35,191 bases of DNA, from NCBI GenBank assembly GCA_009694955.1, contig SIBZ01000006.1, positions 1 to 35,191 of the forward strand. Direction: 5' to 3'. Positions 2,973-4,688 of this stretch are shown one piece after another. The stretch comes from Candidatus Tayloriibacteriota bacterium. Its GTDB lineage: Bacteria; Patescibacteriota; Minisyncoccia; Phycocordibacterales; UBA10002. Numbering within the stretch: the first letter of the stretch is position 1; every line of letters begins with the position of its first letter. Both the position numbers and the translations under genes were made by a program. Under the pieces are notes generated by a model that searched no databases, was not told the origin of the DNA, and saw only the letters and a list, made by a program, of their open reading frames with translations.

Positions 2973-3144
2973 CTCTACTATTCTCTATTCTGTTCCGTTC
3001 GCACGGCTCGTCACCCTTACGGGCAAGCGGCCTTTTACCAAGTCTTCCCTTAGTGCCAATCTGTTTAAGGTACCAGACAAACCATTGCACGCTCTATAGA
3101 GACGCACAATATCGACTCGTTCACCCCCAACCGAAGTTGAGGAG

Positions 3145-4688
3145 AATAATTTTGAAATGTTCCACGAGCAGCTTCCGCTACCCGTGCCTTGTTACGACTT
3201 AGCCCCTGTCACCGAATTTACCTTAGGCCCGCATAAAGCGAGATTTCGGGTACCCCCGGCTCCCTTGGCTTGACGGGCGGTGAGTACAAGACTTGAGAAC
3301 GTATTCACCGCGGTTTGCTGACCCGCGATTACTAGCGATTCCAACTTCATGAGGTCGAGTTGCAGACCTCAATCTGAACTGGGGCTACTTTTATAACGAT
3401 TAGCTCAGGGTTACCCCGTCGCAGACGTGTTGTAGTAGCCATTGTATTGCGTGTGTTGCCCAAGGTATCAGAGGGCCATGCTGATCTGGCGTCATCCTCG
3501 CCTTCCTCCCCGCACTTTATTTTCGAAAGATTCGAAAACAAAGTGCGGGGCAGTCTCGCCTGACAAATATAACAGGCAACGAGGGTTGCGTTCGTTACCC
3601 CACTTAAGGGAACAATTCAAACCACGAACTGACGACGACCATGCAGCACCTGTCCAGACGTCCTTGTGAGACGACAAACGTTTCTGCTTGTCTTCGTCTG
3701 GATTTCTAACCTTGGTAAGGTTCTTCGCTTACCATCGAATTAAACCACACAATCCACCGCTTGTGCAAGTCCCCGTCTATTCCTTTGAGTTTTAACCTTG
3801 CGGTCGTACTACCCAGGCGGATCATTTATCGCGTTAGCTTCGCCTCTCGGAGGGTCGATACTCTGAAAAGCCAATGATCATCGTTTAGGGCGTGGACTAC
3901 TGGGGTATCTAATCCCATTCGCTACCCACGCTTTCGTGTTTCAGTGTCAGGAATGCACCAGTTTGCTGCCTTCGCTTTCGGTGTTCCCCATGATATCAAC
4001 GGATTTCACCCCTACACCATGAGTTCCGCAAACCTCTTGCATCCTCCAGCCATACCGTTTCTTCTGCGGACCCCCGGTTAAGCCGAAGAATTTGACAGAA
4101 GACTAATATAGCCACCTACACACCCTTTACGCCCAGTAATTCCGGATAACGCTTGAGGCACTCGTATTACCGCTACTGCTGGCACGAGTTTAGTAACCTC
4201 TTATTCTTGGGATGATCAATAAACTTTCTATCCCACAAAAGCAGTTTACATCCCGAAGGACTTCATCCTGCACGCGGCGTCGCTCCGTCAGACTTTCGTC
4301 CATTGCGGAAGATTCTCGACTGCAGCCACCCGTAGGTGTATGGACCGTATCTCAGTTCCATCGGTGGGGGTCACCCTCTCAGGTCCCCTAGGCGTCATAG
4401 CCTTGGTGAGCTTTTACCTCACCAACTAGCTGATACCGAGCAGGCCGTTCAAAGAGCGTCTTGCGACTTTACCAAATACATAATTCTGGATTCACTTCGT
4501 GAACCCACAATTATGTATTCGGACTATCGGGAATTACCTCACCTTTCGATGAGCTATGCCTGACTCTAGGGTACGTTACCTGCTTATTACTACCTCGTCT
4601 GCCGCTCCCCTTGCGGGGCGCTCGACTTGCATGCCTTATCCACGCCGCCAGCGTTCATCCTGAGCTAGGATCAAACTCTAATATTGAA
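3145..4688 (-). rRNA. 16S rRNA (ends approximate)
   Basis: 5' AGAGTTTGATCCTAGCTCAGGATGAACGCTGGCGGCG (reverse complement near 4640-4680) to AAGTCGTAACAAGGCACGGGTAGCGGAAGCTGCTCGTG (helix 45, 3163-3186). Confidence 0.97.

Follow-up and report, generated by a model that had tools for sequence, protein, structure and literature searches.

The anti-Shine-Dalgarno (anti-SD) sequence of 16S rRNA is among the most conserved of all bacterial sequences and the textbook basis for start-site choice, and the 16S rRNA gene on a 35,191-nucleotide stretch of DNA from a Candidatus Tayloriibacteriota bacterium (the window, i.e. the whole stretch that was analysed) raises the question of whether an entire lineage may do without it. 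The gene lies on the minus strand at 3150-4686, where the Rfam SSU_rRNA_bacteria model (RF00177) is matched in full length from 4686 to 3150 (1347 bits, model positions 1-1533). It is present as a single copy; a search of the 868,699-base genome (88.6% complete) gave no second 16S gene, and a second, canonical copy as the source of an anti-SD was rejected on this ground. Helix 45 (CACGGGTAGC-GGAA-GCTGCTCGTG, 3163-3186, minus strand) is intact, as the first-pass annotation of this DNA had claimed: it folds as 10 bp closed by a GGAA loop, and 118 named relatives carry the same h45 type. The 18 nt that follow (3162-3145, minus strand) read GAACATTTCAAAATTATT where GATCACCTCCTT belongs, and CCUCC is absent from the 13-15 nt after helix 45, the expected site of GATCACCTCCTT. 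The 3′ end of the gene thus runs GTCGTAACAAGG-CACGGGTAGC-GGAA-GCTGCTCGTG-GAACATTTCAAAATTATT-CTCCTCAACTTCGGTTGGGGGTGAACGAG. This is a true bacterial 16S rRNA gene from which the anti-SD is missing, and the mature 16S rRNA would, as judged from the gene, end without it as well. The proposal of that annotation that the canonical anti-SD is lacking therefore stands, supported by the replacement tail and by an order-wide absence; its coordinates were correct, with the minus strand left implicit. Alignment with relatives, the check that it had named beforehand, revealed both this order-wide absence and an identical 18-nt tail in G004, a genome of the same genus. In agreement with the anti-SD-less category of Amin et al. 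2018, helix 45 is followed by a 13-nt tail without anti-SD-like sequence, and this trait is common to close relatives, hence not a sequencing error.

The surroundings of the gene bear on its integrity. A pre-16S leader-trailer helix is formed by a leader arm at 4716-4742 and a trailer arm at 2976-3002 (minus strand; inverted repeat I1, 27 nt, 93%), and a terminator-like hairpin with a T run is located directly past the trailer arm (2934-2979, minus strand; inverted repeat I3); the 16S seems to form a transcription unit of its own. That the tail is an artefact of assembly or binning, or the end of a damaged or pseudo-16S, is next to inconceivable. The genome is admittedly a 52-contig assembly that is 88.6% complete, but the leader-trailer helix surrounds the gene, the Rfam match is full-length, the identical 18-nt tail is shared by G004, and 101 genomes in the order, including a single-contig one, have the same tail start. 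A chimera or misassembly is ruled out by the leader-trailer helix and the same tail in relatives; as this stem encloses the gene and same-genus G004 has the identical tail, a chimera can be dismissed in practice. An insertion or intron at the 16S 3′ end was likewise rejected, with no CCUCC found further downstream in relatives.

The loss extends far beyond the window. Among 197 genomes from the window's order, whose members are tiny and uncultured (completeness of 90% or more, plus the genome of the window itself), the exact h45-GGANNANTTC junction was found in 101, the tail start being conserved in the order, and h45 followed by ACCTCC in only one, G170, where the canonical 16S resides on a separate, foreign contig with a different h45 and the genome's own anti-SD-less 16S is also present. 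All readable relatives in the order are without CCUCC, most of them with tails of type GGANNAWTTCAA. At the level of the class, a canonical tail is present in 93 of 385 genomes and a looser pattern detects the 16S 3′ end in 280 of the 385, from which about two thirds of the readable class genomes would lack the anti-SD, a figure that is approximate because the two counts come from slightly different patterns. Near-misses to the anti-SD also occur in the class (GATCACCTTCTT, GATCACTACATT and GATCATTTTTTT). None of the 118 named genomes with the anti-SD-less h45 type has CCTCC within 16 nt; the names include Ca. Nomura-, Kaiser-, Zambryski-, Taylor-, Lloyd- and Yonathbacteria, as well as Ca. Adler-, Giovannoni-, Niyogi-, Jorgensen- and Staskawiczbacteria. 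In the other classes of the phylum CCUCC is kept in almost all genomes sampled, often followed by TTTCTARGGAG. On a 16S tree of 91 rows that was built without the tail (a quick tree with some long branches), the anti-SD state changes at least 3 times, versus 28 for shuffled labels, the genomes without it forming two large clades plus isolated cases.

Variants of the motif were seen in passing. A few Patescibacteria of other classes carry CCTCTT, CCGCC, CTTCC or TTTCC as variant anti-SDs (G446, G485, G526, G563 and G574), the tails TTCTCCTTTTAAGGA (L046, L047, L051 and L310) hold a remnant CTCC within a self-complementary hairpin, and L050 has the compensated tail CTCTTTTAAGAG; the tails of the latter two kinds may represent a step between anti-SD and loss.

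We then looked at the upstream regions of genes, with one ORF procedure for all genomes and genome stretches of at most 20 kb. GGAG, GAGG and AGGA were scored at -18 to -5 with internal Met codons as control, and start codons were set mechanically at the first ATG, a choice that blurs both the SD and the -10 box signals. In the E. coli control, SD 4-mers precede 46.7% of genes versus 4.4% at internal Met. In the window's genome (G000) they are at background (10.6% versus 10.7%), i.e. no SD motif is enriched upstream, a further trait of the category of Amin et al. 2018. SD motifs are also at background in four other anti-SD-less genomes, as well as in four class members in which CCUCC is kept, and this background level even where CCUCC stays supports a loss of SD use before that of the anti-SD. 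An SD is present in two of four Patescibacteria of other classes, G453 (26.8% versus 8.6%, p=0.0001) and G573 (22.9%, p=0.04). An EM motif search returned TATACT at -12 in G000 and AAGGAG in G453, the latter indicating that the method sees an SD where one is present.

The motif at -12 is that of a promoter. In G000 the TATAMT hexamer peaks exactly at -12 from the ATG (24 of 265 genes versus 1.9 per position), and the same peak is observed in G014 (19/155), G038 (15/171) and G439 (12/113), with a background of 1.0-1.9 per position over the four genomes; in E. coli none of 120 genes has a -10 box at -12. With a box at this place, transcription is predicted to begin at the A of the ATG or immediately beside it, and these four genomes therefore display the arrangement of leaderless initiators, a -10 box at the fixed distance that places the transcription start on the AUG. 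Two candidates lie in the window on the minus strand, at 22318-23073 (CTATATACTATTTCT, with the -10 box at -12, then ATG) and at 24942-25583 (CTATACTATTCAT, with TATACT at -12, then ATG). Translation probably starts on mRNAs that begin at the start codon, the transcription starts being predicted from the promoter spacing. Under a strict definition of the -10 box, allowing 1 nt to either side of -12, ∼14% of first genes carry one versus 3% in the control; the leaderless fraction may thus be the smaller one, and the remaining genes call for another explanation. The -12 peak is weak in anti-SD-less G288, and a -10 peak is also present in G164 and G573, which keep the anti-SD. Deinococcus and mycobacteria are leaderless-rich, their -10 box being set close to the start codon at constant spacing, and keep a functional anti-SD and SD genes; such spacing is shared here but, unlike in those bacteria, neither anti-SD nor SD was detected.

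Three other accounts of the missing signal deserve consideration. If the anti-SD were displaced rather than lost, the mature 16S would be ∼24 nt longer and would expose the CUCCUC at 3144-3139. Such a motif, CTCCTC, does occur 18 nt past helix 45, and G004 has CTCTCC near the same place; however, it sits mostly inside a UUCG-capped 8-bp stem (3124-3143, minus strand), a 3′ precursor stem, just as the first-pass annotation had it, and the sequence of this hairpin is conserved only to the closest relative, with unrelated sequence at that place in others. Moreover, the upstream 4-mers in the same genome are at the background level given above, and AGGA alone (20 versus 11 in the control window) is not significantly enriched. 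With no SD in the genome and the hairpin not conserved, we rejected a relocated anti-SD, which is very unlikely. A new SD/anti-SD pair, in which an upstream motif would be complementary to the new tail, is if anything even less probable. The conserved tail start speaks for it in that something constrains the tail, but in the window's order the 4-mers that could pair with the new tails show no enrichment as a set (mean z -0.41, -0.10 and 0.01), and this candidate was rejected on that basis. The corresponding mean z is 1.68 in E. coli and 1.11 in G453, in both of which GGAG and AGGA stand out. The mean z of 0.79 for tail complements in G288 (f125, outside the order) derives from AT-rich words, and two single words with a z of 2.7, AATA in G000 and GTAT in G014, coincide with the -10 box or with overall AT-richness.

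Initiation might also proceed as in Bacteroidia, with SD-independent, A-rich, Kozak-like starts on leadered mRNAs and with leaderless genes being rare, an account that we consider rather unlikely, albeit far from negligible. Consistent with it, a pyrimidine is found at -1 before the ATG in 71-80% of genes in G000 and G014, first and operon-internal alike, upstream regions are A-rich in several genomes, and the EM search gives AAAATT at -6 in the anti-SD-keeping G291 and G277. Against it stands the sharp -12 peak of G000 and of three further genomes without anti-SD, a leaderless geometry that is absent in E. coli. The pyrimidine at -1 may be a start context besides leaderless promoters, and the leaderless and Bacteroidia-like routes probably coexist, the distinction being partly a matter of proportion.

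Taken as a joint reading, we think it likely that the anti-SD was lost in ancient times, that an AU-rich hairpin tail stands in its stead, and that genes are translated without SD pairing from leaderless and other SD-free starts. SD use would have faded first, early in the class, while leaderless and other SD-free starts took over; selection on the anti-SD would then have been released and the sequence lost in a few ancestors. In the clade ancestor this loss would lie long in the past, an AU-rich tail with a small hairpin having taken the place of the anti-SD, and only the pairing of the 3′ tail would have been retained, probably for 16S 3′-end maturation. Many first genes appear to have a promoter in which 6 nt separate the end of the -10 box from the ATG, such that the mRNA would start at the AUG and the ribosome would pick this 5′ AUG directly with initiator tRNA (leaderless initiation). 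Operon-internal genes, also without SD, would depend on SD-independent AUG recognition and on coupling to the upstream gene.

The replacement tail itself shows signs of a retained pairing. Among 146 different tails lacking the anti-SD, 107 repeat positions 9-11 as their reverse complement a short way downstream, versus 53.1±4.5 (maximum 69) after random re-pairing of arms with 3′ parts, a permutation that does not remove the shared ancestry by which counts are inflated, with TCC/GGA nonetheless found in several families. The pairs are compensatory, TCA occurring with TGA in 65 of 77 cases and TCC with GGA in 30 of 31, along with CTC-GAG, GTC-GAC and AAC-GTT. The signal is clear in the arm-matching permutation and weak in ungapped pairwise covariation and plain tail folding energy. 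For the species of the window itself, folding gives a poor tail hairpin, followed by a strong UUCG stem. The tail hairpin occupies the place of CTCCTTTCTARGGAG in other Patescibacteria, where a precursor hairpin covers the anti-SD, and the pairing probably serves 16S 3′-end maturation, having been kept while the anti-SD sequence drifted. A bolder idea, which we hold to be unlikely, is that the tail forms in the mature ribosome a new, selected 3′-terminal helix (‘h46’) by the mRNA exit channel that has taken over the role of the anti-SD or its proteins; such a helix could, for example, shut the exit site or give preference to mRNAs with AUG at their 5′ end, and if so the clade would own a structurally committed leaderless ribosome.

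Translation and maturation factors were surveyed as well. Era binds GAUCACCUCC and is lost in most CPR (PMC10582724), and Paceibacteria are mostly without it (PMC12641178); loss of Era removes one reason to keep the sequence that it recognizes. IF3 was found in 47 of 47 genomes tested, its C-terminal domain scoring lowest in the window's order (37-48 bits versus 50-91 in the rest of the class and phylum), and bS21 matches, often weak, were obtained in 32 of the 47, with none in G000. In these surveys of IF3, YbeY and bS21, no clean presence/absence match with anti-SD loss was seen.

Loss of the anti-SD is known from Chryseobacterium, Elizabethkingia, Riemerella, Blattabacterium, Mycoplasma, Carsonella and Hodgkinia (Lim et al. 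2012; Amin et al. 2018, PMC6107228; PMC10783764). Amin et al. 2018 (PMC6107228) list 128 of 20,648 taxids without it, mostly Bacteroidetes, Mycoplasma and Carsonella; CPR are not mentioned there, nor among the anti-SD-less bacteria of PMC10783764, and CPR 16S 3′ termini are ‘often not fully annotated’ (PMC12641178). In the open-access literature we found no report tying SD/anti-SD loss or leaderless starts to Patescibacteria, CPR or Parcubacteria. A loss known from Flavobacteria, Mycoplasma and insect symbionts would thus be new for Patescibacteria, and at an unusual scale. The reported anti-SD-less bacteria (Bacteroidetes, Tenericutes and symbionts) are alike in having an intact h45, a tail without CCUCC and no enrichment of upstream SD, whereas the trait is here order-wide, dominant in a large environmental class, and accompanied by a replacement tail that is conserved and has retained a hairpin with covariation. 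In Flavobacterium johnsoniae and other Bacteroidia CCUCC is kept and hidden by bS21, bS18 and bS6 (PMC6847099, PMC9976891); SD-less genes and a start context in place of the SD are shared, but CCUCC is gone from the gene in the window's order. Among the 385 class genomes it is kept in 93, and class members with CCUCC but without SD use resemble the Bacteroidia state. Mammalian mitochondrial 12S rRNA also lacks the anti-SD and keeps h45 (PMC10582724), but in an organelle with few mRNAs, whereas the present case is a bacterial genome of ∼0.9 Mb. The anti-SD is gone from an entire order and from most sampled genomes of a large environmental class, well beyond a few symbionts. As the class presents all stages (anti-SD kept without SD use, near-misses and full loss), retention and release of the anti-SD become testable by comparison. 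In practice, gene callers that score the SD, annotation of 16S ends and expression of genes from these bacteria are affected.

Several further features of the window were recorded. The rRNA genes are unlinked, the 16S (2934-4742, with its own processing stem and terminator) being located ∼21 kb from a 23S - tRNA-Gly - tRNA - 5S cluster (25610-29992). The 23S match (26306-29992) covers 3687 bases, versus 2925 positions in the model, and contains a long insert at ∼29390-29302 and probably other inserts too (introns or insertions). A tRNA-Phe predicted by ARAGORN at 25791-25865 (anticodon AAA in the loop CTAAAGA) has a body that looks more of the Leu/Ser type, an unusual combination that may be misassigned. 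Finally, a long ORF at 481-2037 resembles a serine recombinase and overlaps with its end a tRNA-Leu (2006-2092), perhaps reflecting an integrated element at the tRNA gene.
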